From NCBI RefSeq assembly GCF_900167565.1, contig NZ_FUZV01000002.1, positions 124,001 through 188,000 of the forward strand: a stretch of DNA of 64,000 bases, written 5' to 3'. Both the position numbers and the translations under genes were made by a program. Shown piece after piece: positions 29,238 to 42,891 of this stretch; position 1 is the stretch's first letter, and every line of letters begins with the position of its first letter. This stretch comes from Pseudoxanthomonas indica (lineage in GTDB: Bacteria; Pseudomonadota; Gammaproteobacteria; Xanthomonadales; Xanthomonadaceae). A model generated the notes under the pieces. The model saw only the letters and a program-made list of their open reading frames with translations. It was not told where the DNA came from and ran no database searches.

Positions 29238-29960
29238 TCAGCGCTTGCCAGTTTTCTTGCGGGGCGCTGCAGGTGCAGCTGCTGTGGGTGTGGCAGCTGG
29301 CTTCTTCAGCCGCAGGGCGGCCGGGCTGGCCGCCGCCGCCTCGTCGCCGTGCAGGGTCATCAGCGATTCCATCAACTGCTCATCGGCGCTGGAGCACACA
29401 CCCAGCAGCAGGACTTCGTCGCAGCCCTCGGCGGCGATGTAGGCATGGCCCATGTTGGAGTCGATATAGACGGCCTGGCCCACTTCCAGGATCACCGGGT
29501 CGTAGAACTCGGTGTGGACCTCGGCGCGGCCTTCCAGCACGTGGATGTACTCCTCGCCGGAGTGGTGCACCAGGTTGCCGAATTCCTCGATGCTCTTGGC
29601 GCGCACCCGGGTCAGCACTGGAATCATGCGCTTACGCCGAAGTTCCGGGCACAGGTAGTAATACTCGTAGTTGGGCGTGTTGACCCGGATCGCGTCCTCG
29701 ATGCGGCCGATGCTGCGGCGCGCGGTCACCGGCGCCTCGGCCACTTCGTCCTCTTCGGCAAACAGCTCGGACATGCGCAGGTTCAGGCGCTGGCTCAGCT
29801 GCAACAGCTTGTCGTAGGTCAGGGTCAGGCGGTCGTGTTCCACCTTGGACAGGGTGGACAGCGGAATGCCTGATTGCTCGCTCATTTCCTTGAGCGTCCA
29901 GCCTTTGCGGGTGCGCAAAGAACGCAGCAGGCCGCCGATGGTGGGGTGTGGCGATGTCAT
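29238..29960 (-). CDS. XRE-family regulator with C-terminal cupin sensor domain
   Basis: A 240-residue transcription factor. The N-terminal XRE helix-turn-helix spans about 8-63 (TLKEMSEQSGIPLSTLSKVE). A cupin domain (about 115-185) has candidate metal or ligand residues H132, H133, E136, E137, H140 and H172. An Ala/Pro/Lys-rich basic tail ends the protein. XRE-cupin proteins commonly sense amino acids, peptides or polyamines and control neighbouring catabolic genes. AAGGAG lies before the ATG at 29960. It is divergent from unit 1 of the D-amino-acid/peptide cluster and has a copy of the shared CTAATCAG-like element 43 nt upstream, so it probably regulates the cluster and itself (inference). 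Confidence 0.85.
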   Translation of the reverse strand: MTSPHPTIGGLLRSLRTRKGWTLKEMSEQSGIPLSTLSKVEHDRLTLTYDKLLQLSQRLNLRMSELFAEEDEVAEAPVTARRSIGRIEDAIRVNTPNYEYYYLCPELRRKRMIPVLTRVRAKSIEEFGNLVHHSGEEYIHVLEGRAEVHTEFYDPVILEVGQAVYIDSNMGHAYIAAEGCDEVLLLGVCSSADEQLMESLMTLHGDEAAAASPAALRLKKPAATPTAAAPAAPRKKTGKR

Positions 29961-30002
29961 TGCTTGCTGACTCCTTGCCCGGGGGCAAACTGCATGCGCG
30001 TC

Positions 30003-30030
30003 CTGATTGGGAGCATCATCGCCTGACCCG
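30003..30030 (-). promoter_or_regulatory. operator-like element upstream of the XRE-cupin regulator (site R)
   Basis: On the minus strand CCAATCAG (30010-30003) is identical to a site in the TonB-receptor promoter. A weaker copy, CGGGTCAG (30030-30023), begins exactly 20 bp upstream. The position, 43-70 nt before the regulator ATG, suggests autoregulation. The remainder of the 278-bp divergent gap (29961-30238) shows only these sites and the unit 1 promoter. Confidence 0.45.
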
Positions 30031-30135
30031 GCCTGACTCGGGAAGAGTGGGCCGGACGCTTCGTTCCTGCTCGCCGGCAGTGGCATGCGCCTGGCGGGCG
30101 ATCCGGGATGCATGCCACGGAGTGAGAAAAGGGCG

Positions 30136-30175
30136 TTGACAATTCTCTGATTAGGACAAAGTATAGCCGAATCAG
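30136..30175 (+). promoter_or_regulatory. promoter and paired operator of catabolic unit 1 (site A)
   Basis: TTGACA at 30136-30141 lies in a 13-bp stretch (GTTGACAATTCTC) that is identical in the unit 2 promoter. Two elements follow: CTGATTAG (30147-30154, reverse of CTAATCAG) and CGAATCAG (30168-30175), 21 bp apart start to start. A -10 is less certain: AAGTAT (17-nt spacer) or TATAGC (20-nt). The elements flank or overlap the -10, as expected of a repressor site. Confidence 0.6.
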
Positions 30176-30238
30176 GATTGCCAGGCTTCCTGGCGTCATT
30201 CCATTCAATGCTTCAACAGAGAGGGGAGAGCCCTGTCG

Positions 30239-32251
30239 ATGCGTTCGATTTCTTCGTTCCTGGCCGGTTTGCTGGCCGTTCTGGTGGTTGCGCCCGCTGC
30301 GGCCCAACAGACTGTTCCCGCGCCGATGCAGGCGCCGACCGCGAGCGTGCCGCCCGCGCCTGAGACCAGCGCGGCGGCCGCGCCCGCGGCCGACGGCAAT
30401 GCGGCCCTGACCCGCGCCGATGCCGAAGCCTGGCTCGACGGGCTGATGCCGTACGCGATCGGTCGCGGCAACATCCCGGGCGCCGTCGTGGTCATCGTCA
30501 AGGATGGCCAGGTGTTGCTGCAGAAGGGCTACGGCTATGCCGACCTGGAAAAGCGCACGCCGGTGGATCCGGCCACCACGCTGTTCCGTCCCGGCTCGGT
30601 GTCCAAGCTGTTCACCTGGACTGCGGTGATGCAGCTGGTCGAACAGGGCAAGCTGGATTTGGATGCCGACGTCAACCAGTACCTCGACTTCAAGATTCCG
30701 CCGCGCAAGGACAAGCCAGTCACGCTGCGCCAGGTGCTGACCCATACCACCGGCATGGAAGAGTACGTGCGCGGCCTGATCACCGCCGATCCGAGCGACG
30801 CGGTGACGCTGGAGAACTACATCAAGAGCTGGGTGCCCACCCGCATCTTCGATGCAGGCACCACGCCGGCGTATTCCAACTACGCCACCACGCTGGCCGG
30901 TTACATCGTGCAGCGCGTGTCGGGCCAGCCGTTCGATGACTACATCGAAAAGCACATCTTCCAGCCGTTGGACATGCAGCACGCCAGCTTCCGCCAGCCG
31001 CTGCCGGCTGCGCTGTTGCCGCACATGTCCAAGGGCTACAAGGTGGGCGTGGACAAGCCGCAGGGCTTTGAAATCGTCAATCCCGCGCCGGCCGGCAGCC
31101 TGTCCGCGAGCGGCCAGGACATGGGCCAGTTCATGATCGCGCACCTGCAGAACGGCGCGTTCGGTTCCAACCGCATCCTGCGCGAAGACACCGCCAAGCA
31201 GATGCACGAGACTGCGCTGACCATCCTGCCGCCGCTCAACCGCATGCTGCTGGGTTTCTACGAAACCAACGTCAATGGCCACCGCTCGATCACCCACGCC
31301 GGTGACACCCAGTGGTTCCATAGCCAGCTGAGCCTGTTCCCGGACGACAACATCGGCATCTTCGTATCGATGAACAGTTCCGGCACCGAAGGCGTGGCCG
31401 GCAAGATTCGCAGCACGCTGTTCAAGGGTTTCGCCGATCGCTACCTGCCCGGCCCGAACCATGAAGGCAGCGTCGACGCCGCCACCGCCAAGCTGCACGC
31501 GCAGCAGATGGTCGGCGTGTACGACAACAGCCGCCGCTCCGACGATACCTTCGTCACCCTGTCCAACCTGGCCGGGCAGATGAAGGTCGGCTTGAACGAC
31601 AAGGGCGAACTGCTGATTCCGGCGCTGACCGATCTCAATGGCCAGCCCACCCAGTGGGTCGAGATTGCGCCGTACGTGTGGCGTGACGTCAACGGCTCCG
31701 ATCGTCTGGCCGCCAAGTTCGAGAACGGCCGCATCGTGCGCTTCAGCGTGGACCCGTTCTCGCCCTTCATGATGTTCGAGCCGGTGCCGGCGTCGAAGTC
31801 GGGCAGCTGGCTGGTGCCGGCGTTCATCGCCTCGGTGGTGGCGCTGTTGCTGACCGTGCTGGCCTGGCCGGTGTCGGCGCTGGTGCGCCGCCACTACGGC
31901 AAGGCGTACGCGCTGTCGGGCAGCGATGCCCAGGCCCACCGCGTGATCCGCTGGACCGCGCTGGCGGTGCTGGCGGTGCTTATTGGCTACATCGTGTTGC
32001 TGGTGATGATGTTCAGCAACTACGACCTGCTGTCGCCGCGCAACAACGTCTGGGTGCACCTGCTGCGCGTGCTCTGCCTGATCACCTTCCCGCTGGGCGC
32101 GCTGATCGGCCTGTGGAATGCCTGGAGCGTGCTGCGCAGCCGTCGCCGCAAGTGGGCCAAGTTCTGGGCCATCGTGCTGGCCGTGTCCTTCCTGGTCCTG
32201 CTGTGGGTGGGCATCGCCTTCCACATGCTCGGCTACAGCGCCAACTACTGA
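30239..32251 (+). CDS. exported serine hydrolase (beta-lactamase/penicillin-binding-protein-like) with C-terminal membrane helices
   Basis: A 670-residue serine hydrolase of the class C beta-lactamase / DD-peptidase fold. A signal peptide (about 1-22) and an Ala/Pro-rich linker precede the catalytic domain (about 62-420). S120-V-S-K123 is the SxxK nucleophile motif, Y212-S-N214 the YxN motif and HAGDT the third motif. A beta domain follows, then about four transmembrane helices after residue 520, so the catalytic part is tethered at the periplasmic face. Relatives act on D-amino-acid peptides, peptidoglycan or esters. GAGGGGAG precedes the ATG. It is the first gene of unit 1, but an internal terminator follows it. 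Confidence 0.82.
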   Translation: MRSISSFLAGLLAVLVVAPAAAQQTVPAPMQAPTASVPPAPETSAAAAPAADGNAALTRADAEAWLDGLMPYAIGRGNIPGAVVVIVKDGQVLLQKGYGYADLEKRTPVDPATTLFRPGSVSKLFTWTAVMQLVEQGKLDLDADVNQYLDFKIPPRKDKPVTLRQVLTHTTGMEEYVRGLITADPSDAVTLENYIKSWVPTRIFDAGTTPAYSNYATTLAGYIVQRVSGQPFDDYIEKHIFQPLDMQHASFRQPLPAALLPHMSKGYKVGVDKPQGFEIVNPAPAGSLSASGQDMGQFMIAHLQNGAFGSNRILREDTAKQMHETALTILPPLNRMLLGFYETNVNGHRSITHAGDTQWFHSQLSLFPDDNIGIFVSMNSSGTEGVAGKIRSTLFKGFADRYLPGPNHEGSVDAATAKLHAQQMVGVYDNSRRSDDTFVTLSNLAGQMKVGLNDKGELLIPALTDLNGQPTQWVEIAPYVWRDVNGSDRLAAKFENGRIVRFSVDPFSPFMMFEPVPASKSGSWLVPAFIASVVALLLTVLAWPVSALVRRHYGKAYALSGSDAQAHRVIRWTALAVLAVLIGYIVLLVMMFSNYDLLSPRNNVWVHLLRVLCLITFPLGALIGLWNAWSVLRSRRRKWAKFWAIVLAVSFLVLLWVGIAFHMLGYSANY

Positions 32252-32255
32252 GTCA

Positions 32256-32291
32256 ACGGCGGCACCGTCTCGGCGGTGCCGCCGTCTTTTT
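32256..32291 (+). terminator. strong hairpin with T-run between the serine hydrolase and the racemase gene
   Basis: A perfect 12-bp stem (32256-32267 with 32274-32285), a 6-nt loop and CTTTTT after it. It sits inside an otherwise co-directional gene run, so it should reduce transcription of the downstream cytoplasmic genes relative to the hydrolase. Confidence 0.88.
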
Positions 32292-32317
32292 CCACCTGCA
32301 TTGCCCTGGAGCCGGAC

Positions 32318-33343
32318 ATGCCTTCCGTTCCTTCCGCGCGCCTGCGTCTTGGCCTGCACAACGAGCCGCTGCCGCTGACCCACCCGTTCCGCATCTCCGG
32401 CTACGTGTTCAACGCCATGCCGGCCACCGTGGTGAACCTGCACGATGGGCGGTATGAAGGTCGCGGCGAAGGCGCCGGCGTCTACTACCTGCACGACACC
32501 CCGGAACAGATGCTGGCGACGCTGGAATCGCATCGCGAGGTGATTGAAGCCGGCATCAGTCGCGCCGAACTGCGGCAGCTGTTGCCTGCGGGCGGCGCAC
32601 GCAATGCCCTGGATGGCGCGCTGTGGGAGCTGGAATCGCAACGCACCGGCGTGCCGGTGTGGGCGCTGGCCGGACTGCCCGCCACGCGGCCACTGTTGAC
32701 CACCTTCACGGTGGGCGCCGATGCGCCCGATGTCGCCGCACGCGCCGCCGTCGCCTATACGCAGGCGCGCGCGATCAAGATCAAGCTCAGCGGTGATCTG
32801 GATGAGGACATTGCACGCGTGCGCGCTGTACGCAGCGCTCGCGCCGATGTCTGGATTGGCGTGGATGCCAACCAGGGTTACGTGCCGGCGACGCTGGAGC
32901 GGCTGCTGCCGGCCTTGGTCGACAACCGCGTCTCCTTGCTCGAGCAACCGGTCGCGCGCGGCAGCGAAGCGCAGCTCGACGGTATCGACCACATCGTGCC
33001 GATTGCCGCGGACGAGAGCGTGCAGGGCTTCGATGAACTGGAAGCGCTGGTGGGGCGCTTCGATGTCGCCAACATCAAGCTGGACAAGTGCGGCGGCCTC
33101 ACCGAAGGGCTGCTGATGGCGCGGCGCGCACGCGAACTGGGCCTGCAGGTGATGGTGGGCAACATGGCCGGCACCAGCCTGGCGATGGCGCCGGCGTTCG
33201 TGGTGGGCCAGCTGTGCGACGTGGTGGATCTTGATGGTCCTTTGTTCCTGGTCAGCGATCACACGCCGGGCGTGGTCTATCGCGACGGCTACATCACCTG
33301 CGGCGACGATGTCTGGGGCGCCGGCCGGGTGATCCGCGCATGA
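32318..33343 (+). CDS. dgcA: enolase-superfamily racemase/epimerase, N-acetyl-D-Glu racemase DgcA or L-Ala-D/L-Glu epimerase type
   Basis: A 341-residue enolase-superfamily enzyme with the muconate-lactonising-type barrel. K154 and K156 (KIKL) form the first acid/base pair. Metal ligands are D183 (GVDANQGY), E209 (LLEQPV) and D232 (ADESV), and the opposite lysine lies in IKLDKCGG (254-257). These are the residues of dipeptide epimerases (YcjG type). Some of this family have been reassigned, as I recall, to DgcA, which racemises N-acetyl-D-glutamate after acetylation by DgcN (DUF1611). A DUF1611 gene in unit 2 (39034-40074) favours that reading. TGGAG precedes the ATG. It overlaps the transporter gene by 4 bp. 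Confidence 0.78.
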   Translation: MPSVPSARLRLGLHNEPLPLTHPFRISGYVFNAMPATVVNLHDGRYEGRGEGAGVYYLHDTPEQMLATLESHREVIEAGISRAELRQLLPAGGARNALDGALWELESQRTGVPVWALAGLPATRPLLTTFTVGADAPDVAARAAVAYTQARAIKIKLSGDLDEDIARVRAVRSARADVWIGVDANQGYVPATLERLLPALVDNRVSLLEQPVARGSEAQLDGIDHIVPIAADESVQGFDELEALVGRFDVANIKLDKCGGLTEGLLMARRARELGLQVMVGNMAGTSLAMAPAFVVGQLCDVVDLDGPLFLVSDHTPGVVYRDGYITCGDDVWGAGRVIRA

Positions 33344-34596
33344 GCAGCGTCCAGGACAAGACCTGGTTCGGCCAGCCACGTGGCCTGACCATCCTGTTCC
33401 TGACCAACATGTGGGAGTTGTTTTCCTACTACGGCATGCGCGCGCTGCTGGTCTACTACATGACCAAGCAGTTGATGTTCGCGCAGGAGAAGGCGTCCTT
33501 CATCTACGGCACCTACACCGCGATGGCCTACTTCACGCCGATCGTCGGTGGTGTCATCGCCGATCGCTGGCTGGGCAAGCGACGCGCGGTGATCCTGGGC
33601 GGCAGCATCATGGCGCTGGGCCATTTCCTGATGGCCTTCGAACCGCTGTTCTACCTGGCGCTGGCCACCATCGCGCTGGGCAATGGTCTGTTCCTGCCCA
33701 GCCTGCCCAGCCAGATCAATGATCTGTATCGCGCCGACGATCCGCGTCGTGGCCGCGCCTACAACGTCTACTACGTGGGCTTGAACCTGGGCGGTTTCCT
33801 GGCACCGCTGGTGTGCGGCACGCTCGGTGAGGTCTATGGCTGGCATTACGGATTCGGTGCGGCCGGCATCGGCATGTTCGTGGGCCTGATGATCTACGTG
33901 GCCGGGCACAAGTATCTGCCGCAGGAGGCGCAGCGCAGCGCGCCCGTGCAGCCTTCGGAGGGCCCGGCTTCGTCGGGTCGCCTGTGGTTGCTGCTGCTTG
34001 GCGTCGGCATTGCCGCCACCATTTTCCGCGGTGCTTACGAACAGATTGGCAACACCCTGCCGTTGTGGATCGACAGCGGGGTGGATCGCAGCCTGGGTTC
34101 GTTCGTCATCCCGATGACCTGGTTCCAGTCGCTCAATCCGCTGCTGGTGATCAGCATGACGCCGTTCCTGCTGTGGTTCTGGCGGCTTCGCGCGGGGCAG
34201 GGCAAGGAGACGCGACCGGCGATCAAGATGGCCATTGGCGCGCTGATTGTCGCCGCGGCGTACCTGATGCTGGCGGTGGTCACTGCGACCCTGGGCGATC
34301 AACGCGCCACATGGCCGTGGCTGCTCGCTTTCTTCATCGTGCTGACCTTTGGCGAGTTGTACATCCTGCCGACCGGGCTGGGCCTGTTCGCACGCCTGGC
34401 GCCGGCACGACTGGGCGCGACCACGGTGGCATCGTGGTTCCTGGCGATCTTCAGCGGCAGTTTGCTGGCGGGCGCGGTCGGCACGCTGTGGAGCAGCGCC
34501 AGCCATGCCGGGTTTTTCGTATTGCTCGCCGCACTGGCGGTCGTGGCGGCCGGATTGCTCTGGCTGCTCGACAAGCCGATTCGCCAACGGATCTGA
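33340..34596 (+). CDS. POT-family (PTR2-like) peptide transporter of the major facilitator superfamily
   Basis: A 418-residue inner-membrane transporter with about 12 helices. The N-terminus has SYYGMRALLVYYMTKQL and the next helices GTYTAMAYFTPIVGGVIADRWLGKRR, both characteristic of proton-dependent oligopeptide transporters. The usual ExxERFxYYG motif of helix 1 is N23-M-W-E26-L27-F28 here, so the first Glu and the Arg are missing. This suggests altered proton coupling or a distinct subfamily. Translational coupling to the racemase gene (ATGA) ties uptake to breakdown of its substrate, most likely D-residue-containing di- or tripeptides (inference). Confidence 0.82.
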   Translation: MSSVQDKTWFGQPRGLTILFLTNMWELFSYYGMRALLVYYMTKQLMFAQEKASFIYGTYTAMAYFTPIVGGVIADRWLGKRRAVILGGSIMALGHFLMAFEPLFYLALATIALGNGLFLPSLPSQINDLYRADDPRRGRAYNVYYVGLNLGGFLAPLVCGTLGEVYGWHYGFGAAGIGMFVGLMIYVAGHKYLPQEAQRSAPVQPSEGPASSGRLWLLLLGVGIAATIFRGAYEQIGNTLPLWIDSGVDRSLGSFVIPMTWFQSLNPLLVISMTPFLLWFWRLRAGQGKETRPAIKMAIGALIVAAAYLMLAVVTATLGDQRATWPWLLAFFIVLTFGELYILPTGLGLFARLAPARLGATTVASWFLAIFSGSLLAGAVGTLWSSASHAGFFVLLAALAVVAAGLLWLLDKPIRQRI

Positions 34597-34651
34597 TGCC
34601 GGGCTTGCGTAGACGACTCTGACCCCTGTTTTTCCGTTCTGGAGACTGCCC

Positions 34652-36373
34652 ATGTCGCGACTTTCCGTTTCCCTGCTGTCTCTCGCGCTTGCGGTGTGCA
34701 CCGGCCAGGCCAGCGCACAGGCAGCAGCGCCTGCCGATTACGACCTGATCATCCGCAACGGCGTGGTCTACGACGGCAGCGGCGCCGACCCGCAACGCGT
34801 GGACGTGGCCATCCGCGGGGATCGCGTGGTGGCCTGGTTGCCCGCCGGCAATCACGCCACCAGCCAACAGAGCGTGGACGCGCAGGGCCGGGCGGTGGCG
34901 CCGGGTTTCATCAACGTATTGAGCTGGGCCAACGAATCGTTGATCGCCGATGGCCGCGGCATCAGCGACACCAGGCAGGGCGTCACCCTGGAGATCTTCG
35001 GCGAAGGCTGGTCGATGGGTCCGTTCAACGATCGCATGAAGGCCGACGCGGTCAAGCAGCAGGCCGACATCAAGTACCCGATCACCTGGACCACCCTGGG
35101 CGAATACCTGGAGCATCTGCAGCAGCGCGGCGTCACCCCGAACGTGGCGTCCTTCGTGGGCGCCACCACGGTGCGCATCCACGAGCTGGGCGAGGACGAC
35201 GTCAAGCCCACGCCGGCGCAACTGGCGCGCATGCAGGATCTGGTGCGGCAGGCGATGGCCGAAGGCGCACTGGGCGTGGGTGGTTCGTTGATCTATCCAC
35301 CGGCCGCGTTTGCCGACAGTGCGGAGTTGACCGCGCTGGCCCAGGCCGCGGCCGAATCCGGCGGCGGCTACATCGCGCACATGCGCAGCGAAGCCGATCG
35401 CTTCCTGGAAGCGGTGGACGAAACCATCGCCATTGGTCGCGCCACCGGCCAGCGTGCCGAGGCTTATCACCTGAAGGCGGCCGGCGAGAAGAACTGGCCG
35501 AAGATGGCGCAGGCCATCGCCCGCATCCAGGCCGCGCGCGATCAAGGCGTGCTGGCCAGCGCCGACATGTACGCCTACACCGCCGGCGGCACCGGCTTGA
35601 CCGCGGGCCTGCCACCGTGGGTGCAGGCCCGCGGCCACGACGCCATGGTCGCGCGGCTGAAGGATCCGGCAGTACGCAAGCGGGTGATCGCGGAGATGAA
35701 GGATCCCGACGCCGACTGGGAGAACATCCGCCTGCTCACCGGCTCCAATGATCGCGTGCTGCTGATTGCCTTCAAGAACCCGGCGCTGAAGCCACTCATC
35801 GGCAAGACCCTGACCGAGATCGCGCGCCTGCGTGGGACCTCGCCGGAAGAAACCGTGCTGGACCTGATCATCGAAGACGGCTCGGAAATCGGCACCGCCT
35901 ATTTCCTGATGAGCGAAGAGAACGTCGAGCTGGGCCTGAAGCAACCGTGGATCAGCCTGGGCTCGGATGCCGAGTCCGCCGGCATGGGCGGCGTCTTCCT
36001 CAACTACAGCACGCATCCGCGCGCCTACGGCAACTTCGCCCGTTTCCTGGGGCACTACGTGCGTGATCGCCAGTTGATGTCGCTGCAGGAGGGCATCCAT
36101 CGCCTCACCGGCCTGCCCGCGACCAACTGGAAGCTCACCGATCGCGGTTGCCTCAAAGCGGGTTGCTTTGCGGACGTGGTGATTTTCGATCCCGCCGCGA
36201 TCATCGACCACGCCACCTATGCGCAACCGCGCCAATACGCCACCGGCGTCAGCGATGTCTTCGTCAACGGCGTGCAGGTACTGCGTGCCGGCGAACACAC
36301 CGGCGCCACGCCGGGGCAGGTGGTGCGCGGTCCGGGTTGGCGCGGCCCGGCCACGCGCCCGGCCACTCCCTAG
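34652..36373 (+). CDS. exported amidohydrolase of the N-acyl-D-amino-acid deacylase family with an altered metal site
   Basis: A 573-residue amidohydrolase with a signal peptide (cleavage near ASAQ, residue 23), so periplasmic. Family motifs present: DYDLIIRNGVVYDGSG, H243 in AHMRSE, H273 in AYHLKAAG and D439 in LGSDAES, plus a GCFADVVIFDP C-terminal motif. The HxH pair that normally follows APGFID is absent (APGFINVLSW, residues 83-92), and the usual metal-ligand cysteine in GNCG appears as GEGW with E118. The enzyme may be mononuclear or act on another substrate. By family it would release D-amino acids from N-acyl or peptide derivatives. GGAG lies before the ATG. Last gene of unit 1. Confidence 0.78.
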   Translation: MSRLSVSLLSLALAVCTGQASAQAAAPADYDLIIRNGVVYDGSGADPQRVDVAIRGDRVVAWLPAGNHATSQQSVDAQGRAVAPGFINVLSWANESLIADGRGISDTRQGVTLEIFGEGWSMGPFNDRMKADAVKQQADIKYPITWTTLGEYLEHLQQRGVTPNVASFVGATTVRIHELGEDDVKPTPAQLARMQDLVRQAMAEGALGVGGSLIYPPAAFADSAELTALAQAAAESGGGYIAHMRSEADRFLEAVDETIAIGRATGQRAEAYHLKAAGEKNWPKMAQAIARIQAARDQGVLASADMYAYTAGGTGLTAGLPPWVQARGHDAMVARLKDPAVRKRVIAEMKDPDADWENIRLLTGSNDRVLLIAFKNPALKPLIGKTLTEIARLRGTSPEETVLDLIIEDGSEIGTAYFLMSEENVELGLKQPWISLGSDAESAGMGGVFLNYSTHPRAYGNFARFLGHYVRDRQLMSLQEGIHRLTGLPATNWKLTDRGCLKAGCFADVVIFDPAAIIDHATYAQPRQYATGVSDVFVNGVQVLRAGEHTGATPGQVVRGPGWRGPATRPATP

Positions 36374-36384
36374 TTCAGGGGCGG

Positions 36385-36418
36385 AACCGGGCCGCTGCGG
36401 GGGCGGCGGCCCGGTTTT
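36385..36418 (+). terminator. Rho-independent terminator ending catabolic unit 1
   Basis: An 11-bp perfect stem (36385-36395 AACCGGGCCGC with 36406-36416) and a 10-nt G-rich loop, ending in TTTT. It lies 10 bp before the unit 2 promoter, separating the two transcription units. Confidence 0.82.
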
Positions 36419-36427
36419 CCGATTGAG

Positions 36428-36466
36428 TTGACAATTCTCCAATCAGGCTCAATAGTCCCTAATCAG
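36428..36466 (+). promoter_or_regulatory. promoter and paired operator of catabolic unit 2 (site B)
   Basis: TTGACA (36428-36433), a 17-nt spacer and AATAGT (36451-36456). CCAATCAG (36439-36446) lies in the spacer and CTAATCAG (36459-36466) just after the -10, 20 bp apart. The first site begins 11 bp after the start of TTGACA, exactly as at site A. The leader to the TonB-receptor ATG is about 85 nt. Confidence 0.65.
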
Positions 36467-36547
36467 GATAGTAAGCCCTTCTTGCCGCGGTGGCCCAGCC
36501 GCCCGGTCTTCCAGTTGCCAGTCGCCGTTTTCAGCTCGGGGAGAGAT

Positions 36548-38932
36548 ATGAACGCGTTCACGACCACCCGTCCGTCCCATCGCAATCCGTTGTGCCTGGC
36601 CATCGCCTCGGCGCTGGTCCTGTTTGCCGGCGCCGCCTCCGCGCAATCCGCCTCGACCGACGCTGCTGCGGCTGCCGACACGGCCGTGGCGCAGGACGGC
36701 AGCACGCCGCCGACCAGCAAGCCCGACGGCGCCACCACCGAATTCAAGGCGGTCATCGTCACTGCCAACAAGCGGCCCGAAGACGTCCGCAACGTCGCCT
36801 CCTCGATCTCGGTGGTCAGCGACGAGCAGCTGGAAAACATCAACGCCGGCCAGCTCACCGACTACGCCAACTACGTGCCGGGCCTGCAGGCCGCGTCCGA
36901 TGGCACGCCGGGGCAGACGCGCGTGAGCCTGCGCGGCATCGCGCCGCTGTCTTCCGGCGCCACGGTCGGTACCTACATCGACGAAACCCCGGTCGGTTCC
37001 AGTGGCCTGTACCAGGCCGCCACCATTCTCATGCTCGACCTGCTGCCCTACGACATCGATCACCTGGAAGTGCTGCGCGGCCCGCAGGGCACGCTCTACG
37101 GCGCTGGCTCGATGGGTGGCCTGCTCAAGTACGTGACCCGCGCGCCGGATCCTTCCAGCACCGAATTCCGTATTGGCGGCGGCGTGTCCAGCGTCTCCCA
37201 CGGCGAGAACGGCAGCAACGTGCGCTTCGGCGCCAATGTGCCGCTGATTGACGACAAGCTGGCGGTGCGGGTGAGCTACGCACGCAACAACCTGCCGGGC
37301 TACATCGACAATCCGGTCAATGGCGAGGAAGACATCAATGACGCCACCCAGACCAGCGCGCGCGCCGCGCTGCTGTACCAGGGCGATGCCTTCACCCTCA
37401 AGCTGACCGCGTTGCAGCAGAAGATCGACAGCGACAACAACGCCACCGTGTCGATTGATCCGGCCACCTACCAGCCCATCGGCGGCGACCTGACCCACTA
37501 CGTATACGTGGACTCGCCGTTCAAGAAGGACGTGGACTACTACGCCGCCACGCTGGACTGGGATCTGGGCTGGGGCGACTTCACCTCGGCCACCGGCTAT
37601 TCGAAGATCGACACCATGCGCCGGCAGGACACCACCATCGACTACGGCAATGTCGGTGCGGCGTACTTCGGTCTGGATCGCGGCAGTTCGTACTTCGACA
37701 CCACGCTCGACTTCAAACAGCTGACCCAGGAATTCCGCCTGGCCTCCAAGTCCGGTGGCAAGCTGGAATGGCTGGTCGGCACCTTCTACAGCAAGGAAGA
37801 GGGCAACAACCGCCAGTTCGCCGCGCTCAACCAGATGGACGGCACGCCCTTCCCGCCGCCGTATGACGCGGCGGTCAGTGACCTGGCCACCCTGGCGCTG
37901 CCGACCGACTTCAAGGAAATCGCGGTCTTCGCCAATGCCTCGTGGCAGTTCACCGATCGCTTCAAGCTCGGCGCCGGCGTGCGCTACGCCGAGAACGATC
38001 AGAACTTCGTGCAGGACGTGACGTCCGGCATCCTGCTGCCCATCGCGCGCACGCCCAACAGCTCCAGCGAGAACGTGTTCACCTGGAGCCTCACCCCGCA
38101 GTTCCAGATCAGCAAGGACACCCTGCTGTACGCCAAGGTCGCCACCGGCTACCAGCCGGGCGGCCCCAACGTGAAGTTGCCGGGCGTGCCGGACCAGGTC
38201 GATTCGTCCACCCTGATCAGTTACGAAGCCGGCTTGAAGACGATGTTCGCCGACAATCGCGTGCAGTTCGATCTGTCGGTGTTCCGTCTGGACTGGGAAG
38301 ACATCCAGGTGGCCGCGAGCTTTGGCGGCAATACCGGCCTGGTCAACGGCGGCACAGCGCGCAGCCAGGGCATCGAGTTCAGCTCGCTGTTCCGTCCCAC
38401 CACCAACCTGCAACTGGGCTTCAACGCGGCGTACATCGACGCGGAGTTGAGCGACAACTTCCCGACCATGGTGATTCCGCAAGGGCCGTACATCGTCGAG
38501 CTGACCACCGGCCTGTCCGGTGACAGCATGCCCTACACGCCCAAGCTGCAGTACTCGCTCACCGCCGATTATTTCTTCCCGCTCGGCAAGAGCGATTGGG
38601 AAGGCCACATCGGCGGCGGTTACCGCTGGATTGATGACCGGGTCAACACCACCACCCAGGTGCAGGACATCCTCGATGCCGAATCCGGCGGTTTGCTGGA
38701 TCGCACGGTGACCGCGCCCTTGCGCATGGACAGCTACCACTCGCTGGATCTGTATGCCGGCGTGGAAAATGCGCACTGGTCGATTCGCGCCTACGTCAAG
38801 AACGCCACCGACGAGCGCGCCTACACCACCATCACCGATCATCCGGATCAGGTCACCGGCGAAATGGTGGAACTGGTGGCCGCGCCGATCCAGCCGCGTA
38901 CCTTCGGCCTTGAGTTTGACTACCGCTTCTGA
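36548..38932 (+). CDS. TonB-dependent outer-membrane receptor
   Basis: A 794-residue receptor with a signal peptide (about 1-33, ending ASAQ). A short N-terminal region leads to a TonB-box/plug start (EFKAVIVTANKRPEDVRNVA), a plug domain with VSLRGIAPLS and LEVLRGPQGTLYGAGSMGG, then a beta-barrel ending in the aromatic C-terminus FDYRF. It carries large or scarce substrates across the outer membrane using TonB energy. An upstream in-frame extension is rejected because the ATG at 36548 follows GGGGAGAG and starts the signal peptide. Its substrate is probably a peptide or muropeptide, judged from the cluster (inference). First gene of unit 2. Confidence 0.93.
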   Translation: MNAFTTTRPSHRNPLCLAIASALVLFAGAASAQSASTDAAAAADTAVAQDGSTPPTSKPDGATTEFKAVIVTANKRPEDVRNVASSISVVSDEQLENINAGQLTDYANYVPGLQAASDGTPGQTRVSLRGIAPLSSGATVGTYIDETPVGSSGLYQAATILMLDLLPYDIDHLEVLRGPQGTLYGAGSMGGLLKYVTRAPDPSSTEFRIGGGVSSVSHGENGSNVRFGANVPLIDDKLAVRVSYARNNLPGYIDNPVNGEEDINDATQTSARAALLYQGDAFTLKLTALQQKIDSDNNATVSIDPATYQPIGGDLTHYVYVDSPFKKDVDYYAATLDWDLGWGDFTSATGYSKIDTMRRQDTTIDYGNVGAAYFGLDRGSSYFDTTLDFKQLTQEFRLASKSGGKLEWLVGTFYSKEEGNNRQFAALNQMDGTPFPPPYDAAVSDLATLALPTDFKEIAVFANASWQFTDRFKLGAGVRYAENDQNFVQDVTSGILLPIARTPNSSSENVFTWSLTPQFQISKDTLLYAKVATGYQPGGPNVKLPGVPDQVDSSTLISYEAGLKTMFADNRVQFDLSVFRLDWEDIQVAASFGGNTGLVNGGTARSQGIEFSSLFRPTTNLQLGFNAAYIDAELSDNFPTMVIPQGPYIVELTTGLSGDSMPYTPKLQYSLTADYFFPLGKSDWEGHIGGGYRWIDDRVNTTTQVQDILDAESGGLLDRTVTAPLRMDSYHSLDLYAGVENAHWSIRAYVKNATDERAYTTITDHPDQVTGEMVELVAAPIQPRTFGLEFDYRF

Positions 38933-38966
38933 GCGAGGTCGCCGTGTCCTATCTGACCCATCGCTC

Positions 38967-39018
38967 GCCCGCCCCTGCCGATCCGGCAGGGCGGGCAGGC
39001 GCTCCTTCCGCGCCTGCC
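38967..39018 (+). repeat. two overlapping inverted repeats between the TonB receptor and the DUF1611 gene
   Basis: Hairpin 1 pairs 38967-38980 with 38984-38996 (GCCCGCCCCTGCCG / CGGCAGGGCGGGC, one bulge). Hairpin 2 pairs 38994-39002 with 39010-39018 (perfect 9 bp, 7-nt loop). They share three bases and so compete. They end just before the GGTGAG of the DUF1611 gene. No T-run follows. They may stabilise the receptor mRNA and lower downstream expression. Confidence 0.6.
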
Positions 39019-39033
39019 GGTGAGCTGCACAGC

Positions 39034-40074
39034 ATGAGCCAGTCCTTCCTGCGCACCGATGCGCTGCCCGCGCTGCCCGGGCCGTATCTTCTGTTCCTGG
39101 GCGACGTGCACGAAGCCGGTTATGCCAAGACCGCGTTTGGCCTGCGTGACTGGGCGCCCGAGCGTTGCGTGGGCGAGTTCGCCTGCGCCGGCGCCACCGT
39201 CACCACCGGACTGCCCTTCCTCACCCCGGCGCAGGCGGTGGCGGCGGGTGCGCGATCCATCGTGATTGGTGTGGCCAACATCGGCGGGCAGATTCCCGAG
39301 GCCTGGATCACTTCGTTGTTGCAGGCGATGGAAGCAGGTCTGGATGTCATCAGCGGCATGCACATGCGCCTCGGCGAACTCGTCGCGTTGCGCGATGCCG
39401 CCGCCGCGCTGGGGCGACAGCTGATCGACGTGCGGCAGCCGCCGGCCGGCATCCCCATCGCCAGCGGCCACCGCCGCACCGGCAAGCGCCTGCTGACCCT
39501 GGGCACCGACTGCGCGCTGGGCAAGAAGTACACCGCGCTGGCGTTGACGCGTGCATTTGCGCAACGTGGCCACGCGGTCGATTTCCGTGCGACCGGCCAG
39601 ACCGGCATCCTCATTGCTGGCCGCGGCATGCCAATGGATGCGGTGATTTCCGACTTCGCCGCAGGCGCGGCCGAACTGGTTTCGCCGGATGCCGATCCGA
39701 CGCACTGGGACATCATCGAAGGCCAGGGTTCGCTGTTCCATCCGGCCTATGCCGGCGTCTCGCTGGCGCTGCTGCATGGCAGCCAGCCGGACGTGGTGGT
39801 GATCTGCCATCAACCGGGACGCGAGCGCGTGCTCGGCCATCCGCAGTACGCGCTGCCCAGCATCGAGGAAACGATCGCCCTGACCCTGCAGCTGGGCCGT
39901 CGCACCAATGCGGGTATTCGCTGCGGCGGCGTTGCCTTGAACACCGCGCACCTGGACGCCACCGCAGCCGAGGCCCTGCTGCGCAGCGAGAGCCAGCGCC
40001 TGGGCTGCGCAGTCGCCGATCCCATGCGCCCGGGGCCGGCCTTCGATCAGCTGGTGGACGCCTGCCTGGTCTGA
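39034..40074 (+). CDS. dgcN: DUF1611 family protein, N-acetyltransferase DgcN type
   Basis: A 346-residue protein. The N-terminal domain starts with GPYLLFLGDVHEAGYAKTAF, and a P-loop-like TLGTDCALGKKYTALAL (about 163-179) marks DUF1611. As I recall, DUF1611 protein DgcN acetylates D-glutamate with acetyl-CoA in a D-Glu catabolic route completed by the racemase DgcA; both are encoded in this cluster. An upstream GTG (38944) would add 30 residues encoded by two GC-rich hairpins. The ATG at 39034 with GGTGAG upstream matches where homology begins and is chosen. Function by family and context; D-Glu specificity is not proven from sequence. Confidence 0.78.
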   Translation: MSQSFLRTDALPALPGPYLLFLGDVHEAGYAKTAFGLRDWAPERCVGEFACAGATVTTGLPFLTPAQAVAAGARSIVIGVANIGGQIPEAWITSLLQAMEAGLDVISGMHMRLGELVALRDAAAALGRQLIDVRQPPAGIPIASGHRRTGKRLLTLGTDCALGKKYTALALTRAFAQRGHAVDFRATGQTGILIAGRGMPMDAVISDFAAGAAELVSPDADPTHWDIIEGQGSLFHPAYAGVSLALLHGSQPDVVVICHQPGRERVLGHPQYALPSIEETIALTLQLGRRTNAGIRCGGVALNTAHLDATAAEALLRSESQRLGCAVADPMRPGPAFDQLVDACLV

Positions 40075-40144
40075 TCCCCCAGCACACATTCCCCTGCAAT
40101 ACCGCCTGCCGCTGATTGCGGCGGACTGACAGAAGGACCGAAGC

Positions 40145-41737
40145 ATGAGCCGACTCTCCCCGTCCTTGCGCCCGCTGGCATTGGCCCTGCTGTGCAGCAT
40201 TCCCGCACTGGCGTTGGCCGACCCGCCCAAGAATCTCGACGCACGCGTGGCCCAGGTGATGCAGGAGCAGGGCGTGCCCGGCATGGCGGTGGCGATCGTC
40301 GAGAACGGCCACGTGGTCCACGCCAAGGGCTACGGCGTGCGTCGCCTCGGCGGCACGGAGGCGGTGGACGCGGATACGATTTTCCCGATTGGCTCCACCA
40401 GCAAGGCGATGACCGTGGCGGCGCTGGCGGTGCTGGTGGATGAGAAGAAGATCGACTGGGACGATCGCGTCATCGATCACCTGCCCGGCTTCCAGATGTA
40501 CGACGCCTGGGTCACCCGCGAGCTGACCATCCGCGATCTGCTGGTGCACCGCAGCGGCCTGGGCCTGGGCGCGGGCGATCTGATGTTCGTGCCGCGTTCC
40601 TCGCTCAGCCGCGCCGAATCGGTGCGCCGGCTGCGCTACCTCAAGCCGGCCACCAGCTTCCGCAGCGGCTATGCCTACGACAACGTGCTGTACATGGTGG
40701 CCGGTGCGGTGATCGAAGCGGTGAGCGGGCAGACCTGGGAAGCGTACATCCGCGATCATGTGTTCGAGCCGGCCGGCATGCGCGTCACCACCTCCGATGA
40801 AGTCGATCAGTTCGCCACCGCCAACCGCGCCCAGCCACATGCGCGCATGGATGGTGGCCTGCGTGGCGTCGGCCGCCAGGAAGTGCTGGACGAACGCGCC
40901 AGCCTCGGTCGCAATGCCGCACCGGCGGGCGGCGTGGCCTCCAGCGCCAATGACATGGCGCGTTGGTTGGAGATCCAGCTGGCGCACGGAGCGTTGCCCG
41001 AAGGGCAGGGCAAGCGCCTGTACAGCGAAACGGCCGCGCGCGAGATGTGGACGCCGCAGGTCAACATGCCGATCAGCCAGTACCCGGCGCCGATTGCCGA
41101 AGCCACCCCGCAGTTTTCCAGCTATGCCCTGGGCTGGGACGTGGAGGACTACCGTGGTCTGAAGATCATCTCGCACGGCGGCGCGGTCCTCGGCGCGCAG
41201 ACCATGGTGGTGCTGATCCCGGATCGCAACATCGGCTTCTCGTTGAACATCAACTCCGAGGACGGCGTGGTGCTGCGCGGTCTGATGTTCGAGTTGCTGG
41301 ATCACTACCTCGATCAGCCGCAACGCGACTGGGTCGGCGACTTCAGCAAGTTCCGCCAGGCGCGGGAATTGCTCAAGGTCAGCGCCAAGCCGGTGGCATC
41401 GCGACCGACGCTGCCGTTGGGCGGCTACGCCGGTCGCTATGCCGATCCGTGGTACGGCCCGATCAGCATCCATCAGGAGGGCAAGCGCCTGCGTTTGAAC
41501 TTCGAGCAGACGCCCAACATGCAGGGCACGCTGGAGCACTGGCAGTACGACACCTTCGTGGTGCGCTGGGACGATCGCACTTCGGAGCCGGCGTACATGA
41601 CCTTCCGCCTGGACGAGCAGGGTAAGGTGGACGACATCCGCATGAAGGCGGTCTCGCCGATTGCCGATTTCAGCTGGGACTACCACGACCTGCATTTCAC
41701 CCCGCAGGCCGCGGGCGCGGCGGGCGGGCAGCCATGA
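40145..41737 (+). CDS. exported serine hydrolase (class C beta-lactamase / D-aminopeptidase-like)
   Basis: A 530-residue serine hydrolase with a signal peptide (about 1-25). S84-T-S-K87 is the SxxK motif, Y178-D-N180 the YxN motif, and [10 protein letters not shown] supplies the third (HxG-type) motif. A C-terminal beta domain (about 425-520, DUF3471-like) replaces the membrane helices of its unit 1 relative. Enzymes of this type include D-aminopeptidases, D-Ala-D-Ala carboxypeptidases and esterases. It follows the DUF1611 gene by 70 bp and overlaps the acyl-CoA dehydrogenase start by 4 bp. Confidence 0.82.
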
Positions 41738-42891
41738 AGTCGCTGGATTTCGATCTCGGCGAGGACATCGACCAACTGCGCGACAGCGTGCAGCGCTTCG
41801 CCGCCAGCGTCATCGCACCACTGGCCGCGCAGGCCGATCGCGACAATGCCTTCCCGGCCGGCCTGTGGCCGCAACTGGGTGAGCTGGGCCTGCTCGGCTT
41901 GACTGTGGAAGAGCAATACGGCGGCGCCAACCTGGGCTATCTGGCGCACGTGGTGGCGATGGAGGAGATTTCGCGCGCCTGTTCGGCGATTGGCTTGTCG
42001 TATGGCGCGCACTCCAACCTGTGCGTCAACCAACTGCGCAAGAATGGCAACGCCGAGCAGAAGCAGCGCTACCTGCCCAAGCTGGTCAGCGGCGAACACG
42101 TCGGCGCGCTGGCGATGAGCGAGAGTGGCGCGGGCTCGGATGTGGTCGGCATGAAACTGCGTGCCGAGCGACGCGGCGATCGCTACGTGCTCAATGGCCA
42201 TAAGATGTGGATCACCAACGGGCCCGATGCCGACACGCTGATTGTCTACGCCAAGACCGATGCCGATGCCGGCTCGCGCGGCATCACCGCCTTCATCGTC
42301 GAAAAGGGCTTTGCCGGCTTCAGCACGGCACAGAAGCTGGACAAGCTCGGCATGCGCGGGTCCAACACCTGCGAACTGGTGTTCGAGGACTGCGAAGTGC
42401 CGGAAGAAAACGTGCTGGGCACGGTGGGTCGCGGCGTGGCGGTGCTGATGTCCGGGCTGGATTACGAGCGCGTGGTGCTCTCGGGCGGACCGCTGGGCAT
42501 TATGGCCGCCTGCCTGGATGTCGTGGTGCCTTATGTGCGCGAGCGCAGGCAGTTTGGCCAGGCCATTGGCGAGTTCGGCCTGATGCAGGCCAAGCTGGCC
42601 GACATGTACGTCGGCTTCAACGCCTGCCGCGCCTATGTGTATGCGGTGGCGCGCGCCTGCGATCGCAACGGCGCCACCCGCAAGGATGCCGCAGGCGCCA
42701 TCCTGTATGCCGCGGAAAAGGCCAGCTGGATTGCCGGCCAGGCCATCCAGTCACTCGGTGGCAATGGCTACATGAACGAGTACGCGCCCGGGCGCTTGTG
42801 GCGTGATGCCAAGCTGTACGAGATCGGCGCCGGTACCTCGGAGATCCGACGCATGTTGATTGGACGCGAGCTGTTTGCCGAAGCGGCTTGA
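41734..42891 (+). CDS. acyl-CoA dehydrogenase, isovaleryl-CoA dehydrogenase type
   Basis: A 385-residue FAD enzyme. Signature segments: [18 protein letters not shown] (FAD/substrate), [27 protein letters not shown] and the C-terminal [33 protein letters not shown] region. The catalytic base is in [13 protein letters not shown], the isovaleryl-type position, rather than the C-terminal site of short-chain enzymes. By family it oxidises isovaleryl-CoA in leucine breakdown. No other leucine-degradation genes are present. Coupling to the serine hydrolase gene (ATGA) places it in the peptide cluster, where it may handle a branched or acyl side-product (inference). Confidence 0.85.

Follow-up and report, generated by a model that had tools for sequence, protein, structure and literature searches.

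The window analysed here is a 64,000-nucleotide stretch of Pseudoxanthomonas indica DNA, part of contig C2 in a genome of 3.96 Mb, and it contains a two-unit gene cluster at positions 29238-42891. The system encoded there is a variant of the DgcN-DgcA kind and most likely a D-peptide utilisation regulon. Nine genes, all in frame, make up the block, with one regulator gene on the minus strand and eight genes on the plus strand. The regulator (29238..29960) belongs to the XRE family and has a C-terminal cupin domain (Pfam HTH_19/HTH_3 and Cupin_2); its longest open reading frame reaches 30113, and it is divergent from promoter/operator-like element 1 (30136..30177, plus strand). Element 1 lies upstream of SH1 (30239..32251), an S12 serine hydrolase (PF00144, 222.5 bits), which is followed by a candidate DgcA-like enolase-superfamily racemase/epimerase (32318..33343), a POT-family oligopeptide:H+ symporter sharing 4 bases with the DgcA-like gene (33340..34596; TIGR00924, 291.6 bits, above the cut-off of 130.2) and a probably exported amidohydrolase of the D-aminoacylase family (34652..36373). 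Element 2 (36428..36468, plus strand) opens the second unit upstream of a TonB-dependent receptor (36548..38932; Pfam Plug and TonB_dep_Rec_b-barrel). Behind the receptor lie a DgcN-like DUF1611 protein, a candidate N-acetyltransferase (39034..40074), the exported S12 serine hydrolase SH2 with a DUF3471 domain (40145..41737; PF00144, 226 bits; PF11954, 104.4 bits) and an acyl-CoA dehydrogenase that overlaps SH2 by 4 bases (41734..42891) and stands outside the conserved system. The spacings along the plus strand are 66, -4, 55, 174, 101, 70 and -4 bases, and the widest precedes the TonB receptor. Starts picked by reading lie later than those of the longest open reading frames for the regulator (29960), the DgcA-like gene (32318), the TonB receptor (36548) and the DgcN-like gene (39034). 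The analysis confirms every family that an initial annotation, made from the letters alone, had named at this locus.

Shared promoter/operator-like element

Element 1 consists of TTGACAATTCTCTGATTAGGA, followed by AATCAGGA 21 bases past the first half-site, and element 2 reads TTGACAATTCTCCAATCAGGCTCAATAGTCCCTAATCAGGA. In both, a distance of 20 or 21 bases, roughly two turns of the helix, separates the half-sites, which overlap a TTGACA box. The sequence TTGACAATTCTCTGATT occurs with at most four mismatches in the gap between the regulator and the next gene in 47 of 60 relatives' loci, with the consensus GGTTGACAATTCTCTGATTAGGATCATTAT. A scoring matrix built from these 47 sites, with the window left out, yields 36.3 bits at 36426 and 28.3 bits at 30134, compared with 7.0 bits for the best of 20 mononucleotide shuffles; thus, both units carry the element. 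The training set consists of first-gene sites, and second-unit sites stand outside it. Across 80 loci, the matrix locates 110 sites of at least 14 bits, of which 53 precede SH1, 34 TonB receptors, 10 M19 genes, five DgcN genes and three other genes, with five unassigned; 37 of the 80 loci combine a site before SH1 with another before a TonB receptor or M19 gene.

Whole-genome pattern scans return site 1, site 2 and one further hit at three mismatches; element 1 is the sole exact site, and element 2 is the sole match to a relaxed pattern. Element 2 additionally gives a promoter-like hit, and one such hit is about the number that shuffles yield. The initial annotation had grouped the two units into one regulon, and the shared element before both supports this grouping at the sequence level. 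The XRE-cupin regulator may be the protein that binds it. We also considered an element common to this cluster and three related loci of the same genome (a canonical dgc locus, a mini-cluster and a third epimerase locus: L003, L009 and L010, respectively), and rejected this idea, as none of the three contains a site of at least 9 bits.

Conservation and exchange of the parts

A survey of 149 genomes of the family detects some DgcN relative in 28 and the window type (65-100% identity) in 25. With a limit of E 1e-80 for window-type DgcA, the window-type DgcN-like and DgcA-like genes occupy exactly the same 25 genomes. All 24 family loci that were fetched combine both genes with at least one S12 hydrolase; with a threshold of 35% identity, 23 also have the TonB receptor, which the remaining one has at 32%, and 19 have the regulator. 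Such a distribution bears on the idea that the system recycles the cell's own wall. Peptidoglycan contains D-Glu and D-Ala, as this idea would require, but the patchy occurrence in 25 of 149 family genomes and the presence of an outer-membrane importer in the set make self-recycling highly improbable. Moreover, an epimerase-like gene (160 bits to NF042940) sits elsewhere in the genome, in the third locus (L010, 7895-10506), where it adjoins, by reading, an NlpC/P60-like exported protein with an RpiR-type regulator near; this is possibly a separate murein-peptide locus.

The set extends beyond the family. A scan of named genomes retained the best 80 of 575 DgcN-like relatives, which by their names presumably fall into Xanthomonadales, Steroidobacterales and Sphingomonadales, along with some bins of other label. 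Counting was confined to the 63 loci of at least 20.2 kb, and 17 shorter ones were dropped. Some S12 hydrolase is present in all 63, the regulator (at least 35% identity) in 61, an inner-membrane transporter in 59, DgcA in 58, the TonB receptor in 55, and a D-aminoacylase-like or M19 protein at any level in 48. The five-part set of regulator, S12 hydrolase, DgcA, TonB receptor and inner-membrane transporter is complete in 48 of the 63 loci and in none of 28 canonical DgcN neighbourhoods (of 29, one below 15 kb being dropped), a contrast affected by the choice of loci by DgcN similarity, by queries that derive from the window and its relatives, and by a control drawn largely from other taxa. 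The canonical loci contain the regulator in no case, any S12 hydrolase in five, DgcA in 23, a TonB receptor in eight and any of three transporters in two (DUF819 in one).

Gene order varies among taxa, and the set is retained. A phylum-wide search of 398 genomes adds one genome from another class (G359) that has the window type (66%) with like neighbours. Over 66 loci, the tree distances of the DgcN-like and DgcA-like proteins correlate with r 0.72, a value reached in none of 999 permutations and one that still includes shared species descent. The genes form a real, conserved two-unit system. Two Sphingobium loci (L173 and L194) each contain two DgcN-like genes in adjoining clusters.

Certain parts of the system are exchanged between loci. 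POT (33 of 63) and DUF819 (8 of 63; a protein of 185.4 bits) never occur in the same locus, and neither do the D-aminoacylase-like protein (21 of 63) and the Pfam-assigned M19 protein (9 of 63), each counted at 50% identity or more. The swapped genes occupy the equal position in the gene order of family loci. Such swapping of places between unrelated proteins suggests a shared job, namely import in the first pair and metal-dependent hydrolysis of D-residue amides in the second. M19 enzymes act on L-D dipeptides. A further amidohydrolase family appears in 13 loci. In addition to POT and DUF819, relatives carry a polytopic protein, labelled XTM (e.g. L045 3836-4975), between dgcN and SH2; it is found in 47 of the 63 named loci and is absent from the window. 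XTM has no family match in Pfam or NCBIfam, and we take it to resemble YkvI-type proteins.

The acyl-CoA dehydrogenase was also considered as a member of the system, as the initial annotation had it, and was rejected, given its presence in none of the 24 family loci and in one of the 63 full-length named loci. A second copy, 68% identical, is encoded elsewhere in the genome. The single pathway proposed in that annotation is supported in part: one set unites import through a TonB receptor with S12 hydrolases, an inner-membrane carrier and the DgcN/DgcA-like pair, and D-Glu or muropeptides would be a candidate substrate.

DgcN-like, DgcA-like and hydrolytic enzymes

The DgcN-like protein has the DUF1611_N and DUF1611_C architecture, with PF17396 (75.8 bits) and PF07755 (231.3 bits) both above their cut-offs. 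It scores 435.5 bits on the DgcN model NF041892, short of the curated cut-off of 480, and the DgcA-like protein scores 340 bits on NF042940, short of 400. Both group as sister clades of canonical DgcN and DgcA. Across 44 sequences of the DgcA-like clade, K154, K156, D183, E209, D232, K254, D304 and D306 are invariant; we take these residues to be the catalytic KxK, metal D/E/D, K and DxD of the enolase superfamily. The DgcN/DgcA likeness named in the initial annotation is upheld with respect to families, architecture and catalytic residues, and is qualified by the missed cut-offs and by the loss of a loop arginine described below.

Could the DgcA-like protein instead be a dipeptide epimerase that acts on dipeptides imported by POT, leaving the DgcN-like protein with a separate job? 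Among solved structures, 4gfi is the nearest in both sequence and fold, and its title states homology to dipeptide epimerase; in addition, the mini-cluster of the same genome (L009 7843-15440; C1 ~1799840-1807440) pairs a DgcA-like gene with POT in the absence of DgcN. The mini-cluster comprises an XRE-cupin regulator, a TonB receptor, SH1, the DgcA-like gene and POT, and also lacks the D-aminoacylase-like gene, SH2 and, at 9 bits, the window element. Its racemase is 57% identical to the window protein, and at E 1e-80 this genome is the only one of the 25 matching family genomes to have a second DgcA-like match. However, the window protein reaches 203 bits on the L-Ala-D/L-Glu epimerase model NF011708, against a cut-off of 343, and differs from this and other dipeptide epimerases in having a DgcN-like partner gene. 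Under the limits applied, all 25 family genomes with one of the two genes also have the other. Furthermore, 22 of the 63 named loci lack both POT and DUF819, and 18 of those have the polytopic protein only. A dipeptide epimerase therefore appears quite unlikely.

A different question is raised by 11 conserved positions that separate the racemase clade from canonical DgcA. At residue 28, 96 of 97 clade members have Gly where 30 of 32 canonical DgcA sequences have a loop Arg, and the clade also features Arg214 (96 of 97), Thr129 (96 of 97) and Asn282 (94 of 97). The loop arginine of canonical DgcA presumably binds the Glu side chain. This pattern, together with the canonical locus in the same genome, would suit the same chemistry with a shifted racemase and a substrate other than D-Glu, such as N-acetyl D-Asp, D-Asn or a neutral D-amino acid. 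On the other hand, Arg214 might take over the role of the lost arginine, and the DgcN-like protein is nearly unaltered at conserved positions, with one conserved difference from canonical DgcN (E48 versus Q; 108 clade and 33 canonical sequences, limits of 90% and 80%). A changed specificity, which overlaps with D-peptide utilisation as the general function, is a possible but rather doubtful explanation.

The two periplasmic hydrolases retain the S12 motifs SxxK, YxN and HxG, as SVSK/YSN/HAG in SH1 and STSK/YDN/HGG in SH2. By hydropathy, SH1 starts with a signal-like segment and has four hydrophobic segments in its C-terminal part. Its best solved chains include Flp, a PBP-related beta-lactamase and alkaline D-peptidase, and the best solved chain of SH2 is the ClbP peptidase. 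ClbP is described in PMC9889268 as a membrane-anchored periplasmic S12 D-amino peptidase with three helices. SH1 and SH2 share its S12 catalytic domain, and the C-terminal hydrophobic segments of SH1 recall its membrane domain. Unlike ClbP-type prodrug peptidases, which have Ser/Thr at this place (ClbP position 188), both have Asn as the third YxN residue.

With such relatives, the cluster could serve to degrade peptide antibiotics with D-residues, or the cyclic peptides of cyanobacteria, instead of using ordinary peptides as food. Microcystin peptides contain D-amino acids, and Sphingosinicella microcystinivorans (L192) is one carrier of the cluster. Nevertheless, the residue for ClbP-type D-Asn selectivity is not present, and TonB import with conversion to an L-amino acid would suit nutrition better; peptide destruction is accordingly very unlikely.

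The amidohydrolase has an N-terminus that is signal-like by reading, and the hydropathy scan made no call at its threshold. N-acyl-D-Glu deacylase and D-aminoacylase are among its relatives of known structure. In an alignment with 3gip and 1rjp, LSW and GEG stand where the HxH and Cys motifs are expected; two later histidines are kept. The same loss is found in all 24 parsed of 26 relatives with at least 50% identity. HxH and Cys are, as we understand it, metal ligands of D-aminoacylases, and the protein may be a one-metal variant whose activity is not assured. The family relationship named in the initial annotation holds, without the usual motifs.

Proposed D-peptide utilisation and genomic context

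What does the cluster do? We propose that it probably serves nutrition, as a regulon under local control for the use of peptides or N-acyl peptides bearing D-amino acids. The TonB receptor would carry the ligand across the outer membrane, and SH1 and SH2, together with the amidohydrolase (an M19 dipeptidase in relatives), would trim it in the periplasm to small D-residue units. The POT carrier would import these units, a step for which relatives would use DUF819 and/or the unclassified polytopic protein. In the cytoplasm, the DgcN-like enzyme would N-acetylate the free D-amino acid using acetyl-CoA, and the DgcA-like enzyme would racemise the N-acetyl amino acid by proton abstraction adjacent to the carboxylate; deacetylation would then yield the L-amino acid. 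The XRE-cupin regulator would govern both promoters via the shared TTGACA...AATCAGGA element. Gene content, the shared element, co-inheritance and slot exchange rest on sequence; we infer the substrate, the direction of the route, each enzymatic step, regulator binding and its mode, repressing or activating. D-Glu from cell-wall peptides would be the single likeliest amino acid, an assignment that we regard as tentative.

In a more specific form of this proposal, which we advance with some reserve and do not expect to hold in full, the cluster would belong to a new and widespread kind of locus dedicated to D-residue peptides, being for peptides what a polysaccharide utilisation locus is for polysaccharides. 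It would combine uptake by the TonB receptor, periplasmic trimming specific for D-residues, an exchangeable inner-membrane importer, an acetylate-racemise pair with a new N-acetyl-amino-acid specificity of the racemase, and one XRE-cupin switch, with an operator conserved from Xanthomonadales to Sphingomonadales.

Several observations weigh against D-peptide utilisation as the function. In addition to the missed cut-offs, the lost loop arginine and the altered metal-site motifs, the element is absent at four mismatches from 13 of the 60 regulator-gene gaps and at 14 bits from 15 of the 80 loci, and the second half-site AATCAGGA, allowing one mismatch, clearly follows the first in just 22 of the 47 sites. 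With the queries used, DgcA is missing from five, the TonB receptor from eight, the inner-membrane transporter from four and the regulator from two of the 63 loci. No deacetylase for the last step is recognised among the cluster genes in the NCBIfam and Pfam profile results. The split between the two kinds of locus is not absolute, since in the gammaproteobacterial locus L222 of the control set a canonical-type DgcN/DgcA pair is adjoined by a TonB receptor, a polytopic protein, a D-aminoacylase-like protein, two S12 hydrolases and an M19 protein; L222 is a possible intermediate. Finally, the genome contains a canonical dgcN-dgcA locus (L003 7271-12040; C1 ~1662270-1667040), whose DgcA exceeds the cut-off at 400.8 bits, and free D-Glu is thus already served. 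The two loci might divide the work, with free D-Glu handled by the canonical one and D-residues bound in peptides by the window system. Reading of the flanking genes suggests a LuxR-type regulator and a symporter of the dicarboxylate type beside the canonical pair. More beta-lactamase-fold hydrolases and a TonB receptor are encoded near this locus.

DgcN reportedly acetylates D-Glu, and DgcA reportedly racemises N-acetyl-D-Glu, findings attributed to Yu et al. in 2023. The window pair resembles this pathway (NF041892, NF042940) as a pair of DUF1611 and enolase-superfamily genes with the same domain architecture and catalytic motifs. It differs in forming sister clades below the cut-offs, in the altered racemase positions and in being joined to S12 hydrolases, a TonB receptor, an inner-membrane transporter and an XRE-cupin regulator. 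The matched passages of PMC10845958 name the DgcN-DgcA route from D-Glu to L-Glu, and those of PMC12363236 name dgcN and reckon D-amino acids among slowly used marine organic matter. Among the full-text matches listed, no description joins TonB import to DgcN/DgcA, and the initial annotation's view that the combination is undescribed is not contradicted there, the founding DgcN/DgcA paper being outside this comparison. The closest of the listed matches, PMC3400609, concerns the gammaproteobacterium NOR5-3, in which a TonB receptor beside a D-aminoacylase gene is proposed to take up N-acyl-D-amino acid derivatives. The adjoining genes and the substrate guess are similar to ours, but the matched text mentions neither DgcN/DgcA, DUF1611, S12 hydrolases nor the regulator. 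The matched passages of PMC6090828 and PMC13046382 have no bearing on a D-peptide system.

If the proposal is true, the cluster provides an outside-to-inside route for peptide-bound D-amino acids with a genetic switch built in, and marks which soil and water bacteria carry this route. It would also split off two DgcN/DgcA clades that annotation leaves below cut-off. The conserved operator would be usable as a reporter, so that the substrate could be found by a simple promoter screen.

The G+C content of the block is 0.657 versus 0.657 and 0.659, and composition does not set the block apart. The genes aroQ and tlpA adjoin each other in the genomes G063, of the same genus, and G139, and the block here therefore looks like an insert between aroQ and tlpA; in the other four relatives checked, the 1.5 kb examined yielded no tlpA. 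In G063, the cluster is present as well, on a different contig.

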